Source of the DNA: an uncultured Pelagibacteraceae bacterium
GTDB taxonomy: Bacteria > Pseudomonadota > Alphaproteobacteria > Pelagibacterales > Pelagibacteraceae
Assembly: GCA_902551755.1 (NCBI GenBank)
Contig: CACDEB010000001.1
Coordinates: 371,803 to 435,802, forward strand
DNA: 64,000 bases
Direction: 5' to 3'
Shown here one piece after another: positions 2,088 through 61,434 of the stretch. The position numbers were made by a program, and so were the translations under genes. Under the pieces are notes generated by a model. The model was not told the origin of the DNA, ran no database searches, and saw nothing but the letters and a program-made list of their open reading frames with translations. Each line of letters opens with the position of its first letter. Within the stretch, counting starts at the first letter, position 1.

Positions 2088-3398
2088 TTAAGCAACTACA
2101 AAACTTAAAACGCTTAAAATAGCAATAATCCATATTGCTGGTGAAGTGGTTGCAAATTTTCCTGTAAAAATTTTAATTAAAGCATACGCCACAAAAGCAA
2201 GTGCTATACCATTGCTAATACTGTACGTTAAAGGCATGGTAATCATCGCAACTATAGCAGGAGCAGACTCAGAAATATCATCCCAGGAAATATCCGTGAT
2301 ATTTCTCACGAATAAAACTGCCACATATAATAATGCTGCTCCATCAATTTCTTTAGGCAAACTTGTTGCTAAAGGAGAAAAAAATAAACATGACAAAAAT
2401 AATACACCAATAACTAACGATGTCATTCCTGTTCTTCCACCTGCTTTTACTCCAGCTCCAGACTCAACATAACTTGTTACAGTAGTTGTTCCCATTAAAG
2501 CACCAGCAACTGTGCCCACACTGTCAGACAACATCGCCTTGTTGATATCTTGAACTTTACCTTTGCTGTCTACCTTACCTGCAACATTTGCTACTGAAGT
2601 TAATGTTCCAGCTGTGTCAAAGAAATCAATAAATAGCAAAGTAAAAACTACTGTAGACATACTTGCAGTCAAAGCAGCTTTGAGATCAAAGTCAAACAAG
2701 TAAGTCATAGGAGGTGGTGTATCAACTATACCATTAAACTTTGCAAGACCTGTTGCCCATGCAATTATACTAAACGCAATTATTCCAATTATAATATTGC
2801 CTTTTACTTTAAGTTTTTCTAAAACAACCATGGCTACAAAAGCTAAACATCCTAAAAGTACCAACGGATTTTTAATATCACCTAAAGTAACTAAGGTAAC
2901 TGGATGATCTCCAACTACACCCATAATTTCAAGACCAATTATAGCTAAGAATAAACCTATCCCAGCACCAATCCCTAATTTCAAACTTCTTGGTATGGAA
3001 TTTATTAACCAAGCTCTTAAAGGAGTGAGTGAAATTATTAAAAATAGAACCCCCGCAACGAGCACCGCACCAAGAGCAGCTTGTGGAGAGTAACCCATTC
3101 CACCTACAACTCCGAAAGCAACAAATGCATTTATTCCCATTCCAGGCGCAAGACCTATTGGCCAAGTTTTTCCATAAAAAGCCATTATGAAACAAGCTAC
3201 GGCAGTTGCTAAAATTGTTGCGGTGAAAACTGCTCCAAAATCAAAAAAACCTTTTTCAGGACCAGCAAATTCTCCTGACAATATAAAAGGATTTAAAAAC
3301 ATAATATAAGCCATTGTTAGGAAAGTTGTTATCCCTGCAATAACCTCTGTTTTAAAACTAGTTTTATGTTTTTTATATTCAAAATATTTATCTAACAT
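2088..3398 (-). CDS. NCS2-family purine permease (AzgA/PbuG type)
   Basis: A 436-residue polytopic inner-membrane protein, predicted to import adenine, guanine or hypoxanthine with protons. Typical AzgA-family features are the start MLDKYFEYKKHKTSFKTE, then ITTFLTMAYIMFLNP (residues 24-38), the segment GLAPGMGINAFVAF, and FIDFFDTAGTL in the second half. Length is normal for COG2252. A clear GGAGG precedes the ATG at 3398. The convergent phosphoribosyltransferase gene supports a purine-salvage role. The 127 bases upstream (3399-3525) show no purine-riboswitch-like structure. Confidence 0.9.
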   Translation of the reverse strand: MLDKYFEYKKHKTSFKTEVIAGITTFLTMAYIMFLNPFILSGEFAGPEKGFFDFGAVFTATILATAVACFIMAFYGKTWPIGLAPGMGINAFVAFGVVGGMGYSPQAALGAVLVAGVLFLIISLTPLRAWLINSIPRSLKLGIGAGIGLFLAIIGLEIMGVVGDHPVTLVTLGDIKNPLVLLGCLAFVAMVVLEKLKVKGNIIIGIIAFSIIAWATGLAKFNGIVDTPPPMTYLFDFDLKAALTASMSTVVFTLLFIDFFDTAGTLTSVANVAGKVDSKGKVQDINKAMLSDSVGTVAGALMGTTTVTSYVESGAGVKAGGRTGMTSLVIGVLFLSCLFFSPLATSLPKEIDGAALLYVAVLFVRNITDISWDDISESAPAIVAMITMPLTYSISNGIALAFVAYALIKIFTGKFATTSPAIWIIAILSVLSFVVA

Positions 3399-3864: not shown

Positions 3865-4311
3865 TTATTTAATTTCAATAAGCTTTTTTTTCTTATAATC
3901 AGGCATTACTCTTTCGCAAGCGATAGTTAGCAAACCATCTTTTAACTCAGCTCCATTTACTTTAACATCATCTGCTATAGTAAAAGATCTTGCAAATTGT
4001 CTTTGAGATATTCCTTTATGTAAAATCTCTCCATCCTGATCTTTGTTTTCTGATTTATCTGTCTGTTTTGTTCTAACAGTCAGCATATTATCTTCAAACT
4101 CCACCTCTACATCTTTTTTAGTAAAACCGGCTAAAGCAACTTCAATAGAATATTTATCTTTGCCTGTTTTTCTAATGTTGTAAGGCGGGTAATTTGATTG
4201 CAAACTCATTCCTCCATTACCCAACATGTTTTCAAATTGATCAAACATGTCGTCAAAACCAATTGAGAATGGTCTTAGAGAATTGAATATTGATAGATCC
4301 TTACTTGTCAT
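3865..4311 (-). CDS. Small heat-shock protein Hsp20 (IbpA family)
   Basis: ATP-independent holdase chaperone that binds unfolding proteins. The alpha-crystallin domain spans about residues 35-130. It begins with YPPYNIRKTGKDKYSIEVAL, includes the strand GFTKKDVEVEFEDNMLTVR, and ends with the conserved ADDVKVNGAELKDGLLTIA. The start at 4311 (MTSKDLSIF) is chosen because AAAGGAGG sits at the right distance; a longer frame from 4332 would run through that ribosome site. The leader carries a heat-shock promoter and a ROSE-like thermometer, described separately. Length (148 aa) is typical. Confidence 0.95.
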   Translation of the reverse strand: MTSKDLSIFNSLRPFSIGFDDMFDQFENMLGNGGMSLQSNYPPYNIRKTGKDKYSIEVALAGFTKKDVEVEFEDNMLTVRTKQTDKSENKDQDGEILHKGISQRQFARSFTIADDVKVNGAELKDGLLTIACERVMPDYKKKKLIEIK

Positions 4312-4314
4312 ATT

Positions 4315-4361
4315 ATCCTCCTTTGTTAGCAAGAATTATAAAGGTCCCATTAGGCAACCTT
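4315..4361 (-). promoter_or_regulatory. ROSE-like RNA thermometer in the hsp20 leader
   Basis: In the minus-strand RNA, AUUCUUGCU (4336-4328) can pair with AGGAGGAU (4322-4315), which holds the Shine-Dalgarno sequence. Eight base pairs form, with one bulged G (4330) and a 5-nt AACAA loop. The UUGCU segment with its bulged G opposite AGGA is the signature of ROSE thermometers known upstream of small heat-shock genes in rhizobia and enterics. A second hairpin, AAGGU/ACCUU (4361-4357 with 4345-4341), lies just upstream. The predicted transcript starts near 4360, so the two hairpins fill the whole leader. Folding was done by eye. Confidence 0.68.
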
Positions 4362-4366
4362 AGTAA

Positions 4367-4396
4367 ATATATGGTAATTATTTCTATTTTTTCAAG
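4367..4396 (-). promoter_or_regulatory. Probable RpoH (sigma-32) promoter of hsp20
   Basis: On the minus strand CTTGAA (4396-4391) is followed after 16 bases by CCATATAT (4374-4367). CTTG-type -35 elements with a -10 rich in CC/TAT are typical of alphaproteobacterial heat-shock promoters. The groES promoter in this window has CTTGAA and TTTATATG with the same 16-base spacing, which supports both calls. Confidence 0.6.
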
Positions 4397-4405
4397 ATGC
4401 TGAAA

Positions 4406-6481
4406 TTAAATTTTTTTTGCAATCTTACATATGAAAGCATAGTCAAAAGCTATCTCCTCAATAATTCCATCGCGACCAGATTTACCTCCATGACCTGCAT
4501 TCATTTCAGTTTTTAAAAGTAAAAGATTATTGTCAGTTTTGTTGTCTCTTAACTTTGCTGTAAATTTGAGAGGTTCATCAAATAAAACTCTATTGTCACT
4601 GAGGCTAGTAGTAATTAAAATGTTTGGATAATCCATTTTTTTTATATTGTTGTATGGCGCGTATGAGTAAATATAATCAAAGTGTTCCTTGTTGTCTTTT
4701 GCATTCCCAAACTCATCAAATTCTCCAATCGTCAAAGGTAAAGAATGATCAAGATTAGTTGTCAAACTATCAACAAAAGGAACAGCCATTATCATACCTA
4801 AAAATAAATCTGGTTTTTCATTAACTACCGCTCCCATTAGTAATCCACCGGCTGATCCTCCCATACCAATAATTTTTTTCTTTGAAGTATATTTTTTATC
4901 AATTAAAAATTTTGCACACGAAATATAGTCTTGAAAAGTATTCTTCTTGTTTAATAATTTCCCTTCTTTCCACCACTTCATGCCTCTTTCCATTCCTCCT
5001 CTAATATGAGCGGTTGCCCAAATAATATCCCTATTGATTAAGCTTAATCTGGTAGAGGAAAACGACGGCCACATTGAATTTCCATAGGAACCATATCCAT
5101 ATAAAAGTAAATTTGAATTTCCATCCAGTTTTGTAGTTTTTTTTCTTGTAATTGTGATTGGAATTATTCTTCCATCATGTCCTTCGCACTCAAGCCTTTC
5201 AACAATATAATCATTTGAATTATGACCTGATGGAATTATTTGTTCTTTGACAAGTTTTTTTTCTTTGGTTTTTAGGTTGTAAATAAAAGTTCTAGATGGA
5301 GTTTTTGGAGTAGAGTAGGAAATATATATATCATCTGTGTTACGATCTCTCTGCATAAGAGAAACAGATGAATCGTAAACTATTTCTTCAGTAAAGATTA
5401 TTTCTTCCTCCTCATTTGTTTCAAGATTTTTGACATAAATTTTATCAAGTGCATTTTTAAGTTCTGATCGGATTTGCCAATTTTTGAGGAATGTTAAATT
5501 TCCAATCATAGTTTCAGATTGGTTTGGAATATAAGTTTTCCATTCTTTAGACTCAATATTGTTTGAAACCAAAATTTTAAAATCTTCGGCATCCTCATTT
5601 GTGTGCATGTAAAAATTTCCACCCCATGAATTCACACTATAAATTATCCCCTTTTTTCTTTGTTGAATTAGTTTAGGCTCAGGTTTTTTTTCATCTGTCC
5701 CAAAGTAATATTTCTCTGATGTGTTGTGATCTGAGCTATTTATAAAATAATATTTTTCATCAGAACTTATACCTATGCTAACCGTAAATGCTTTTGTTTT
5801 TTCCTCAAATATAAGTAGATCTTCATTACTAGATGATCCAATTTGATGTCTAAATATTGATCTTGGTCTGTGATTTTCATCCAACTTTGAATAAAATATA
5901 TATAAGTCATCAAGACTAAAGTTTATTGAGCCAGATGTATTTTCAATTTTTTCAGTAACTAACTTGCCAGTTTTAATGTCTCTTATATAAATTGTGAAAT
6001 ATTCTGAACCTTTTAAGTCTAAAGAGTATGCAAGAAATTTATCATTATAACTTACTTCAAGATCGCCAACCCCAAAATACTCAGTCTTAAGTTTATTTTT
6101 TTCTTTATCGCCATTCCAAATTTCTTCAACTTCATCAGTTCCAATTTTCTTCCGGCATTTAATTGAGTAGTTTCCTTTTTTAGTTGTTTTCGTCCAATAC
6201 TCATAATTTTTATCTTTATAAGGAAGAGACTCATCATCTAACTTTATTCTTCCTTTGATTTCATTAAATAATATTTTTTGAAATTCTTTAGTATCTTGTA
6301 AGTGAAACTCAGTATACTTATTTTCCTCTTCTAAATACTTTCTTACCTCAGGTAAAAGCTTTGAACTATCTTTTAAAACTTCCAATATATTTTTTTGGTG
6401 AACCCAGCTATAATCGTCCGTCCAGGTGACGTTATGACAGGATTTTGTTTCTGATTTTTTTGAAAGTTGTGGTATTTTCAT
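4406..6481 (-). CDS. ptrB: Oligopeptidase B-like prolyl oligopeptidase (S9A)
   Basis: A 691-residue serine peptidase that cleaves short peptides, probably after basic residues, in the cytosol; no signal peptide is seen. The N-terminal half (about residues 1-410) is the propeller, beginning with DDYSWVHQKN. The C-terminal alpha/beta hydrolase has the full triad: Ser543 in GGSAGG, Asp629 in SLSDNRV, and His664 in AGHGGKSGR. The YGYGSYG and HIRGG motifs are also present. Length matches oligopeptidase B. Its start codon is 13 bases from the divergent J-protein gene. Confidence 0.92.
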   Translation of the reverse strand: MKIPQLSKKSETKSCHNVTWTDDYSWVHQKNILEVLKDSSKLLPEVRKYLEEENKYTEFHLQDTKEFQKILFNEIKGRIKLDDESLPYKDKNYEYWTKTTKKGNYSIKCRKKIGTDEVEEIWNGDKEKNKLKTEYFGVGDLEVSYNDKFLAYSLDLKGSEYFTIYIRDIKTGKLVTEKIENTSGSINFSLDDLYIFYSKLDENHRPRSIFRHQIGSSSNEDLLIFEEKTKAFTVSIGISSDEKYYFINSSDHNTSEKYYFGTDEKKPEPKLIQQRKKGIIYSVNSWGGNFYMHTNEDAEDFKILVSNNIESKEWKTYIPNQSETMIGNLTFLKNWQIRSELKNALDKIYVKNLETNEEEEIIFTEEIVYDSSVSLMQRDRNTDDIYISYSTPKTPSRTFIYNLKTKEKKLVKEQIIPSGHNSNDYIVERLECEGHDGRIIPITITRKKTTKLDGNSNLLLYGYGSYGNSMWPSFSSTRLSLINRDIIWATAHIRGGMERGMKWWKEGKLLNKKNTFQDYISCAKFLIDKKYTSKKKIIGMGGSAGGLLMGAVVNEKPDLFLGMIMAVPFVDSLTTNLDHSLPLTIGEFDEFGNAKDNKEHFDYIYSYAPYNNIKKMDYPNILITTSLSDNRVLFDEPLKFTAKLRDNKTDNNLLLLKTEMNAGHGGKSGRDGIIEEIAFDYAFICKIAKKI

Positions 6482-59145: not shown

Positions 59146-60284
59146 AAAAAATTGGAATTATCGGAGCAGGGATATCAGGATTATACATAGCTAATCTTTT
59201 TAAAAAAAACCCTAAATATCAAGTATCAATTTTTGATAAAAAAAACTCTCTTAATCTAGATGAGGGGTACGGCGTACAATTATCTACAAATAGTGTCAAA
59301 CTTTTAAATGAAATTGGATTTAACAAAATAGAAAAAAACGAAAAATTTAATCCAGAAAAAATAAATTTTTATTCAAAAAAAGATGAAGATAAAATATGTG
59401 AACTAGATATATCTAAATTTAATTCAAATAATTGTAAATATACTACTTTGAAAAGATCTACTTTGATCAATTTTCTTAAAAAAGATTTAAAGGATTTGAT
59501 CAAAACAAATTATAGTGTATCGAAAATTGATCAAGAGCAAGAAAAAATAAAGCTTAGTTTTCAAAATAAAGAAACTTACGAATGTGATTATTTAATTATT
59601 TCTGATGGAGTTTTTTCAAAAAGTAGACATCTTGTTTCAAATAATCAAATTCACCCAAAATTTAACAATACTTTAGCCATAAGAGGTATGATACCCGCAA
59701 AATCTAATATCATTGATAAAAAAAATATTTTGCTATTTTTAGGCTCTGATTTTCATCATGTAATTTATCCTGTTTCTCCAAGTGGAGATTTAAATTTTAT
59801 AGCCATAATGAAATATAAACTTTTAGCAGAAGAGCAGAAAAATTACTCATTGTTCAGTGATAAATCTTTTATACAAAAAATTTTAAAAAATATTCCTCAA
59901 GAAAACAAAGATTTTTTTAATAATCTTAAAGAAGTAAAAATCTTTCCTGTGTTTGTCAGTGATAGTTTTTTTGAAGTAAAAAATAAGAACATTCATTTAA
60001 TAGGGGATGCTTTTTTTGCTTTTCCACCATCATTTGCTCAAGGCGCGTCTCAGTCTATAGAGGGGGCACATGAACTATTTGCGAGTATAGAAAATAATTC
60101 TAATGCTAACTTTTTTGAAAATAGGGTTAATAAAACAAAAATGGTCAATAATAGATCAAAATTAAATCAGTTAGCCTTTCATTTATCTAATCCTTTAACT
60201 GTATATCTTAGAAATATTTTTTTAAAAAGATTAGTAAAAAATCAAAGGTTTTTAGAAAGTTATTTAGGAAAAATTTATAGATAA
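59142..60284 (+). CDS. FAD-dependent monooxygenase (UbiH/salicylate hydroxylase type)
   Basis: A 380-residue group A flavoprotein. It has the dinucleotide fold KKIGIIGAGISGLYIANLF (residues 2-20), an Asp-Gly region CDYLIISDGVFSKSR, and the FAD-ribityl motif HLIGDAFFAFPPSFAQGASQ. It could hydroxylate an aromatic substrate, for example in ubiquinone synthesis, but the sequence alone does not choose. It overlaps mutY by 4 bases and the convergent ccrM by 10. Confidence 0.83.
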   Translation: MKKIGIIGAGISGLYIANLFKKNPKYQVSIFDKKNSLNLDEGYGVQLSTNSVKLLNEIGFNKIEKNEKFNPEKINFYSKKDEDKICELDISKFNSNNCKYTTLKRSTLINFLKKDLKDLIKTNYSVSKIDQEQEKIKLSFQNKETYECDYLIISDGVFSKSRHLVSNNQIHPKFNNTLAIRGMIPAKSNIIDKKNILLFLGSDFHHVIYPVSPSGDLNFIAIMKYKLLAEEQKNYSLFSDKSFIQKILKNIPQENKDFFNNLKEVKIFPVFVSDSFFEVKNKNIHLIGDAFFAFPPSFAQGASQSIEGAHELFASIENNSNANFFENRVNKTKMVNNRSKLNQLAFHLSNPLTVYLRNIFLKRLVKNQRFLESYLGKIYR

Positions 60285-61354
60285 CTTTTTGACAAGAATT
60301 TTTGTCTTAAATTATCTATTGGCACGAAAGTATTTCCTAATTCACAATGCCAATAAGTCCATCCATTACAACTTTCAGCTCCTAAAATTGTAGCTGCAAC
60401 CTTATGAATTGAACCTTCAGTTTGAGCATGTTTGATACTCCCATCAACCATAATTTTTGCACTGATTTTCTTTTTATTATCAAAAATAATAGTACCAGGC
60501 TTAATTATTCCCAATTCAACCAATGAACCAAAAGGTACTCTTGGTTTGGATTTATTGTTTTTAAGCGTGTCTAAATAATGATCTTCTATTGGTTTTGTAT
60601 TCTTTAATCTTTGTTCGGCAGCTTTGAAATAGGATTTTTCTTTTTCTATACCGTAATAATTTCTACTCAATTTTTTTGCAACCGTTGCAGTTGTGCCTGA
60701 TCCCAAAAACGGATCAAGAATTAAATCATCTTTATTTGAAGTTGCTAATAAAATTCTATGAAGTAAAGCTTCTGGTTTTTGTGTAGAATGAACCTTCTTT
60801 CCATTTTTTTTTAAACGTTCTGTTCCATTGCAAATGGGTAAATCCCAATTAGATCTCATTTGTAAATCATCGTTCAAACATTTTAATGATTGATAATTAA
60901 AAGTATATTTTGAATTCTCTGATTTTGAAGCCCAAATTAAAGTCTCATGAGCGTTAGTAAACCTTGTTCCCCTAAAATTTGGCATTGGATTTTTTTTGTT
61001 CCAAATTACATCATTTAATATCCAAAAACCTAAATTTTGAATGGCTGTACCAACTCTAAATATATTATGATAACTTCCTATAACCCAAATTGCTCCATTC
61101 TTTTTTAAAATTCTCTTGCACTCTCTTAACCACGCATATGTGAAATCATCATATTTCTTAAAACTTTCAAATTGATCCCATTTATCATTTACTGCATTAA
61201 CTTTTGATCTATCTGGTCTAATAAGTTTATTTTTTAGTTGAAGGTTGTAAGGGGGATCTGCAAAAACTAAATCGAAAGTCTCATCTGGAATTTTTTTTAA
61301 TTCTTTAAGACTGTCTCCGTTAATAATTTTGTTTTTTAATTCTAACTCTCTCAT
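60275..61354 (-). CDS. ccrM: Cell-cycle DNA adenine methyltransferase CcrM (GANTC)
   Basis: Beta-class N6-adenine methyltransferase of 359 residues. Catalytic DPPY is at residues 33-36 and the SAM motif DPFLGSGTTATVAKK lies near 215. The C-terminal extension (GSLVELGIIKPGTIIFDNKK, then GAESCNGWTYWHCE) is the CcrM-specific domain, found in alphaproteobacterial solitary methyltransferases that methylate GANTC after replication. No restriction gene is nearby. Its own promoter holds two GANTC sites, listed separately. Confidence 0.95.
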   Translation of the reverse strand: MRELELKNKIINGDSLKELKKIPDETFDLVFADPPYNLQLKNKLIRPDRSKVNAVNDKWDQFESFKKYDDFTYAWLRECKRILKKNGAIWVIGSYHNIFRVGTAIQNLGFWILNDVIWNKKNPMPNFRGTRFTNAHETLIWASKSENSKYTFNYQSLKCLNDDLQMRSNWDLPICNGTERLKKNGKKVHSTQKPEALLHRILLATSNKDDLILDPFLGSGTTATVAKKLSRNYYGIEKEKSYFKAAEQRLKNTKPIEDHYLDTLKNNKSKPRVPFGSLVELGIIKPGTIIFDNKKKISAKIMVDGSIKHAQTEGSIHKVAATILGAESCNGWTYWHCELGNTFVPIDNLRQKFLSKSYL

Positions 61355-61367
61355 TTTAAAAGAGACA

Positions 61368-61396
61368 ATTAGACTCTAGGTCGGAGTCCAGGTCAA
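61368..61396 (-). promoter_or_regulatory. ccrM promoter with two embedded GANTC sites
   Basis: On the minus strand TTGACC (61396-61391), a 17-base spacer and TCTAAT (61373-61368). One GANTC site (61384-61388) lies in the spacer and a second (61372-61376) overlaps the -10 edge; a third GANTC is at 61443-61447. The two also form a 5-bp inverted repeat. The predicted leader is only about 7 nt. CcrM methylation could thus feed back on its own promoter. Confidence 0.6.
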
Positions 61397-61434
61397 CTTA
61401 TGATTGAATTATTTTTGATTAATTGTGCCTTCGA

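Follow-up and report, generated by a model that had tools for sequence, protein, structure and literature searches.

A probable short ROSE-like RNA thermometer with two hairpins in the hsp20 leader of SAR11 bacteria

The DNA analysed here, referred to below as the window, is a stretch of 64,000 nucleotides from an uncultured Pelagibacteraceae bacterium (GenBank assembly GCA_902551755.1, contig CACDEB010000001.1, positions 371,803 to 435,802 of the forward strand). Its minus strand carries a small heat shock gene of the hsp20 or ibpA-like kind (Table 1), whose product has IbpA and IbpB as its top NCBIfam models, neither of which reaches its cut-off. The gene is the single HSP20 match in the source genome (1.07 Mb, 92% complete) and the protein is 98% identical to its counterpart in a Candidatus Pelagibacter ubique record (L031). 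An S9 peptidase gene lies upstream; 94 nt separate its end, at 4406, from the hsp20 AUG. At a distant site of the window, a bablM RNA (Rfam RF01784, 43.8 bits for a cut-off of 38) was observed at 61351-61421 on the minus strand, directly upstream of a CcrM-like DNA methyltransferase gene (60275-61354) and overlapping its first bases. CcrM is the best NCBIfam model for this methyltransferase, below cut-off.

The hsp20 gene is preceded by CTTGAAA and CCATAT, a combination which we take to be a sigma-32 pattern. When up to three mismatches over its 13 positions were allowed, the pattern was present in 175 of 175 distinct upstream regions of relatives and in 31 of 191 shuffled regions. The spacer measures 15 nt in 159 of the 175, and the distance from the end of the -10 element to the foot of the first hairpin of the leader is exactly 7 nt in 137 and between 5 and 9 nt in 171. 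The messenger is therefore predicted to start at the foot of this hairpin, at about 4362. A preliminary description of this DNA had proposed a small hairpin ahead of the Shine-Dalgarno (SD) hairpin with the transcript starting at its foot, and the promoter position agrees with that proposal in the same 137 of 175 regions. The genome also encodes rpoH (TIGR02392, 358 bits, over cut-off). With a sigma-32-like promoter and rpoH in place, a thermometer would probably not be the sole heat input to hsp20.

Table 1. Features of the hsp20 locus in the window
Feature	Position	Strand	Details and basis
hsp20 / ibpA-like small heat shock gene	3865..4311	-	148 aa; ATG 4311-4309; Pfam HSP20 E 1.8e-18
-35 of sigma-32-like promoter, CTTGAAA	4390..4396	-	sequence pattern
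-10 of sigma-32-like promoter, CCATAT	4369..4374	-	sequence pattern; 15-nt spacer to -35
Hairpin 1, AAGGUUGCCUAAUGGGACCUU	4341..4361	-	8 bp, bulged G4355, loop UAAU; covariation
Anti-SD arm, AUUCUUGCU	4328..4336	-	ROSE motif UUGCU at 4332-4328, bulged G4330
SD AGGAGG (4322-4317) and flank, 3' side of hairpin 2, AGGAGGAU	4315..4322	-	pairing counts
Codons 3-5, AGU AAG GAU	4297..4305	-	complementary to whole arm (9 bp); putative SD competitor

Read along the minus strand, the two promoter elements are followed by hairpin 1 (AAGGUUGCCUAAUGGGACCUU), the linker UAUA, the arm AUUCUUGCU, the loop AACAA, the SD side AGGAGGAU, the trinucleotide AAU and the start codon. The arm and the SD side can form eight pairs (four A-U, two C-G and two U-G) around a bulged G, and a reading of the sequence confirms the eight-base-pair pairing with one bulged G inside UUGCU that had been claimed. 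The second bulged G, in hairpin 1, was absent from the earlier account. A fourU thermometer is defined by four consecutive U facing the AGGA of the SD; in the window the arm opposite AGGA is AUUCUUGCU, and no such run of four U was found in it. The element is confined to hsp20 within its own genome: the two covariance models used here, R1 and R2, give 68.6 and 60.0 bits at the window site, against 15.9 bits at the next-best place and 17.9 bits elsewhere in the genome, respectively.

In order to sample relatives independently of the motif, 194 hsp20 loci, the window's included, were gathered through the Hsp20 protein. They comprise the best 80 of 565 protein matches, two further sets of 30 and 24, and 60 loci picked mostly for divergence. 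L081, whose leader is cut off, and L134, missed by the start pattern, were left out, giving 192 leaders, 173 of them distinct over 85 nt and representing at least four Pelagibacteraceae genera (g2-g5) besides that of the window. The motif U(U/C)GCU stands ahead of the SD in 173 of the 173 distinct leaders (171 UUGCU and 2 UCGCU, the latter from genus g3), and the longer form CU(U/C)GCU in 192 of 192 (190 CUUGCU, 2 CUCGCU); L134, outside this set, carries the motif as well. The only change seen in it, U to C, falls on the one position that varies among ROSE motifs. The distance from the foot of hairpin 1 to the AUG is 50-59 nt in 192 of 192 leaders. The loss of UUGCU and of the pairing from relatives that keep their SD, an outcome that would have counted against the thermometer, was not observed, the motif being present in all 173 and at least six pairs around the bulge being possible in 166 of 168 parsed leaders.

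The RNA model was built from 17 leaders of one class with a hand-written structure, toward which the later counts lean. Pair counts were not taken from an initial MAFFT alignment of 36 diverse leaders, in which UUGCU lay one column apart in different leader classes. At E 0.05, R2 matched 98 of 147 genomes of the family, 47 of the 54 of good quality and 12 of 14 genera; at least two of the 98 matched genomes (G912, G922) are false matches. Among 40 stretches found by the model, 36 precede an Hsp20-like start and carry the motif, the other four being false matches, and all 40, having been found through the RNA model, lend no independent support to the motif. One genome of the family (G896, contamination 8%) displays two hsp20-like genes (L259 and L281), each with a leader of the two-hairpin type.

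Hairpin 1 was examined by motif-anchored parsing of 168 leaders, from which L200, missed by the pattern, was dropped. Its five outer pairs are formed in 165, 163, 158, 159 and 152 of these leaders, using up to six standard pair types. Standard pairs occupy 797 of 840 cells; a tree-aware null averages 671 (sd 39) and peaks at 760, none of its 500 simulations reaching the observed count. In 100 model-aligned leaders, 97% of the hairpin 1 cells are paired and seven of nine pairs have changed on both sides. RNAalifold predicts the hairpin unaided, both in the 17-leader and in the 100-leader alignment. A per-pair covariation test with a tree-based null is more sparing: x3-y3 alone among the proposed pairs is significant (E 0.005), the pairs x5, x4 and x2 rank 4th, 5th and 7th of 820 column pairs (E 0.9-2.4), and the 2nd and 3rd ranks are held by column pairs that are not base pairs of the model (o2-i1, E 0.015; o4-s2, E 0.06). 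Of the 173 distinct leaders, 172 have the pattern U(U/C)GC(C/U)...(A/G)GG(A/G); L200 has UUGCC...GGAA instead, which can still pair, and the bulged G is present in all 173 (judged by eye for L200). With a motif strand, a bulged G and a G-rich strand, hairpin 1 therefore repeats the layout of the ROSE core. At the level of the compared sequences, the anatomy of the leader, the position of the promoter, the conservation and the pairing of hairpin 1 can be regarded as established. A sixth outer pair, formed in 106 of 168 leaders and in 102 in shuffles, is not supported. An upstream reading frame starting in the hairpin 1 loop was rejected: an AUG occurs there in 145 of 168 leaders and is missing from 23, with varying frame and length.

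Hairpin 2 displays a different kind of conservation. Over the six columns of CUUGCU the parsimony changes amount to 0, 0, 1, 0, 0 and 0, compared with 4-6 in each of the three preceding columns; the two loop-end columns beside the arm and the SD are also near-constant (1 and 0 changes). Variation is scant in five of the six pairs, and 43 of 95 sequences have the sixth unpaired. Among 52 leaders devoid of the inner U-A pair, 50 gain an extra outer pair; the inner column has changed only once on the tree, and this exchange of pairs therefore represents few independent events. As a general expectation, ROSE hairpins would vary little, since the SD is fixed. The case for the putative hairpin 2 rests on invariance and complementarity, not on covariation. 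The compensatory changes that had been suggested as a check are accordingly found for one half of the leader: hairpin 1 covaries beyond the tree-aware null, and hairpin 2 covaries little. RNAalifold predicted no hairpin 2 in the 100-leader alignment, and in the 17-leader alignment placed it in another register, CCUU against AAGG.

The isolated 30-nt hairpin of the window leader reaches a folding z of -2.19, with 7 of 200 shuffles as good, and longer pieces of the leader only -0.9 to -1.4. At 5-20 C the RNAfold optimum of the 64-nt leader is a shifted, bulge-free UUCUU/AAGGA register; from 25 to 50 C it is one in which a G faces a G. A 55-nt version stays in the shifted register at 25 C, the boundary between registers moving with the 5' end. 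The pairing of eight base pairs with a single bulge is thus possible as it was described, as one among several registers. Across relatives, 61 of the 171 distinct leaders were folded with no coding sequence beyond the AUG, and their SD pairing is 0.83 at 5 C and 0.76 at 35 C. In the same 61 leaders, replacement of UUGCU by AAAAA in silico lowers it to 0.29 and 0.11 at these temperatures, and shuffling of the upstream part gives 0.68 and 0.59. When 18 nt of the gene are included, the arm leaves the SD for the gene, and the SD pairing at 5 C is 0.29 (150 leaders) against 0.55 in shuffled leaders. Elsewhere in the window, nine GGAG starts have an SD pairing of 0.70-1.00, a rough comparison since only the one at 3398 was checked as a gene. 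In nearest-neighbour terms, the melting of hairpin 2 is shallow, and the energy models as applied do not favour simple melting. The check by folding across temperatures proposed in the preliminary description gave rival pairings in the energy model and no steep melting.

The closest architectural parallel is found in the ibpA leaders of Pseudomonas (Rfam ROSE_3, RF02523). As described in PMC3669281, these are sigma-32-driven leaders of 61-62 nt with two hairpins and U(U/C)GCU in hairpin II; they are proven to be regulated by temperature, hairpin II melting and hairpin I not, and deletion of G39 in the P. aeruginosa element repressed expression. The SAR11 leaders share with them a small heat shock gene, a predicted sigma-32 promoter, a two-hairpin layout and a length of about 60 nt, as well as U(U/C)GCU facing the SD in what would be hairpin 2 (PMC3669281). 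The structure line of the Rfam model also shows a bulged G at the same place in the first hairpin; above this bulge ROSE_3 has 3 bp, and the SAR11 leaders have 2 bp closed by a UAAU-type loop. This bulged-G core, common to hairpin 1 and to the ROSE_3 model, points to some role for the first hairpin. In further contrast with the Pseudomonas type, the SAR11 leaders are A+T-rich, belong to Alphaproteobacteria and have, in some lineages, a second partner for the arm inside the gene. With the classical ROSE elements of Bradyrhizobium hspA and enteric ibpA they have in common the kind of gene, the U(U/C)GCU motif and the location of the 3'-most hairpin at the SD; they differ by having two hairpins, in a leader delimited by the predicted start, instead of three to four (PMC3669281). 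The leader had earlier been called smaller than classical ROSE leaders; its two hairpins bear this out, and such a small size was already known from the 61-62 nt of Pseudomonas (PMC3669281). A likeness to ROSE-G, a motif G facing an SD G, appears in one predicted register of the window leader, but ROSE-G elements have CUGCU at ABC transporter genes (PMC12857270), unlike the UUGCU or UCGCU (173 of 173 distinct leaders) at hsp20 here.

At E 10, classical ROSE (RF00435) matches nothing in the genome or in the window; the bulge and the motif speak for the ROSE identity put forward earlier, and the classical model does not recover it. ROSE_3 finds only some relatives, below threshold: none of 23 Pelagibacteraceae hsp20 regions (the window and 22 loci) reaches its cut-off of 43 bits and three match at E 10. 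Its alignments with the leaders of L139 (23 bits), L154 (26.4 bits) and L153 (19.6 bits) span the full length, and in the one with L139 model and leader both show a bulged G in the first hairpin. None of 58 genomes of the order exceeds the cut-off and the source genome has no match. At genome scale an E of 10 is uninformative, 27 of 58 genomes of the order matching against 12 of 14 controls, and one place compared (G205) is not hsp20. In a sample of the phylum, 14 of 299 genomes match ROSE_3 at E 0.01, six of them over cut-off. In the reverse direction R2, built on 100 SAR11 leaders, matches 3 of 12 ROSE_3 loci at E 10 (15.3-26.5 bits) and R1 matches 1 of 12. R2 also scores 13.7-27.9 bits on 8 of 8 loci of another family of the same order (f2, L155-L174), where the one alignment shown is misplaced, on the upstream hairpin. 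The cross-matches between the SAR11 and ROSE_3 models are weak and of low specificity.

The f2 family resembles Pelagibacteraceae in placing UCGCU with a bulged G against AGGAGGAU, and 19 of 19 intact leaders have UCGCU opposite the SD. Its leaders are longer (86-97 nt for the folded pieces), with an additional hairpin in the middle and a longer SD stem. Their SD hairpin, UUAAUCGCUUAAGGAGGAUUAA, has a longer stem than that of Pelagibacter, and three hairpins were seen in 7 of 7 folded among the 20 leaders. Across the class, 33 of 289 genomes match the RNA model at E 0.1, three of them Pelagibacteraceae. Among 17 loci outside this family, 15 were inspected, L238 and L253 (under 3000 bases) being skipped, and six precede HSP20 genes according to Pfam (L237, L239, L240, L241, L245 and L251). 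Four of these, L239, L240, L241 and L251, from two other alphaproteobacterial families, have two-hairpin ROSE-like leaders before their HSP20 genes (match at about 1501-1563) and score 36.7-41.6 bits with R2, a clearer result than the cross-matches with ROSE_3. In L245, positions 1501-1590 hold an hsp20 leader with a SAR11-like hairpin 1 (UUGCC UAAU GGAA) followed by another hairpin-like stretch; ACGCU replaces U(U/C)GCU ahead of its SD. The match in L242 is a terminator-like hairpin, and that in L246 sits before a groES-like gene and resembles a CIRCE motif. The seven further loci outside the family showed no Hsp20-like start. Judged by its architecture, the candidate element is placed with the short ROSE-like type, outside the membership of Rfam ROSE and ROSE_3. 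We would call the SAR11 leaders a new lineage of the short ROSE-like type already known from Pseudomonas.

The SAR11 hsp20 leader, some 50 nt long, is thus likely to be an RNA thermometer of the short ROSE-like type, made of two hairpins and transcribed from a sigma-32 promoter. Its operation may be envisioned as follows. Heat or misfolded protein would raise hsp20 transcription via RpoH. The messenger would start at the foot of hairpin 1, the stable hairpin 1 covering the 5' end while hairpin 2 folds independently. In the cold, the CUUGCU arm would pair loosely with the SD, the pairing being weakened by the bulged or G-opposed G and by a U-G pair, and warming would open hairpin 2 and permit ribosome binding. 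The masking of the SD in the cell, its opening with temperature and the control of translation are inferred.

A leader conserved for reasons other than heat sensing is a much less probable reading. Hairpin 1 would then stabilise the 5' end of the messenger, the CUUGCU/SD pairing would tune translation or be read by a protein or a small RNA, and heat control would be left to RpoH alone. Such a leader agrees with covariation limited to hairpin 1, with a hairpin 2 that escapes the large RNAalifold prediction and melts shallowly in the models, and with the existence of a sigma-32-like promoter and of rpoH. The IbpA protein of Pelagibacter, furthermore, rises under sulphur limitation, a stress other than heat (PMC5069961). 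In that source, P. ubique IbpA (SAR11_0181) increases 3.74- and 7.63-fold at the protein level in two conditions of sulphur limitation and 3.69-fold at the mRNA level in one. SAR11_0181 is presumably the same gene as the window hsp20, and the protein and mRNA figures are compatible with post-transcriptional control without proving it. Against a leader indifferent to heat stands the invariant arm, which is exactly the ROSE motif and occupies the same place before the same kind of gene as in thermometers tested experimentally (PMC3669281).

A second alternative, compatible with the thermometer and about as unlikely as the first, concerns the way in which the arm is released. Over 9 bp the arm AUUCUUGCU can also pair with AGUAAGGAU, the sequence of codons 3-5. 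In the cold, a bistable leader would pair the arm with the SD and form a downstream hairpin; in warmth, the arm would turn to codons 3-5 (AGUAAGG) and leave the SD and the AUG in an open loop. Codons were counted at 189 loci, corresponding to 167 distinct leader-plus-start sequences (g1, g5 and an unlabelled set) whose starts were located with tblastn. All 167 have AGT as codon 3, and codon 4 is AAG in 158, AAA in 3 and an Arg codon in 6, so that AAG accounts for 158 of the 161 Lys codons at this position; in the rest of the same genes AGT makes up about 12% of Ser codons and AAG 20% of Lys codons. Codons 2-4 (ACA AGT AAG, window 4300-4308, minus strand) scarcely vary in nucleotide sequence, even though AGT and AAG are minority choices for their amino acids. 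In 26 distinct MTSKD-type combinations of arm and start, the arm-codon duplex is worth -7.4 kcal/mol against -1.8 kcal/mol for versions recoded with synonymous codons, of which 2.5% (median) match the stability of the real duplex.

Arm-SD and arm-codon pairing were further expressed as an index, the summed pair probabilities divided by six. For the window leader with 30 nt of gene, warming from 5 to 35 C lowers the arm-SD index from 0.77 to 0.25 and raises the arm-codon index from 0.04 to 0.81. Synonymous recodings of the window gene reach the real arm-codon index in 3 of 200 cases at 25 C and 4 of 200 at 35 C with 30 nt, and in 8 and 3 of 200 with 60 nt. The outcome nevertheless depends on the length of gene folded: with 24 nt the arm-codon index of the window leader is 0.81 or higher at every temperature, with 36 or 45 nt it never exceeds 0.08, with 60 or 90 nt it rises to 0.29 and with 120 nt to 0.56. 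Over 41 leaders the mean change with temperature is small, from 0.39 to 0.59 with 30 nt and from 0.22 to 0.25 with 90 nt. The codon sequences are moreover related, close to a single event, and a codon partner is missing from the lineages with MNK, MKEL, MSKLN and MSNAL starts while MTSRD and MSKNA types have one; the second partner is therefore a feature of only part of Pelagibacteraceae. That the ROSE arm of Pelagibacter and of other genera with an MTSKD start might be a two-way switch, holding either the SD or the AGU AAG G of codons 3-5, whose codon choice would be fixed for this purpose, is put forward as a doubtful extension of the thermometer. If true, the SD would be freed by the arm changing partners and not by plain melting, and the response could be sharper within the small span of temperatures that the ocean offers. 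No literature on such a coding-region partner of a thermometer arm was apparent by title among the papers listed.

Chance, finally, is very improbable: an A-rich leader with an SD might bear a random UUGCU, and UUGCU-N(3-10)-AGGAG, found twice in the window for 0.7 expected (19 of 100 shuffles have at least two), is unremarkable in a lone sequence, but this explanation is refuted by the motif's presence in every one of the 173 distinct leaders, which span at least five genera, and by the covarying hairpin 1.

No description of such an hsp20 leader element in SAR11 or Pelagibacter was found among the open-licence papers searched. A term search of the available text of a survey of structured RNAs in P. 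ubique returned no mention of hsp20, heat shock, ibpA or thermometer (PMC2704228). ROSE-like motifs have been noted before two small heat shock genes of a marine Roseobacter (PMC3230580), and the idea is therefore not new for marine alphaproteobacteria at large. Should the thermometer reading of the SAR11 leader hold, the short ROSE type would extend from Pseudomonas to an alphaproteobacterial lineage missed by the Rfam models. As a conserved thermometer, the leader would tie the temperature of the sea directly to chaperone output.
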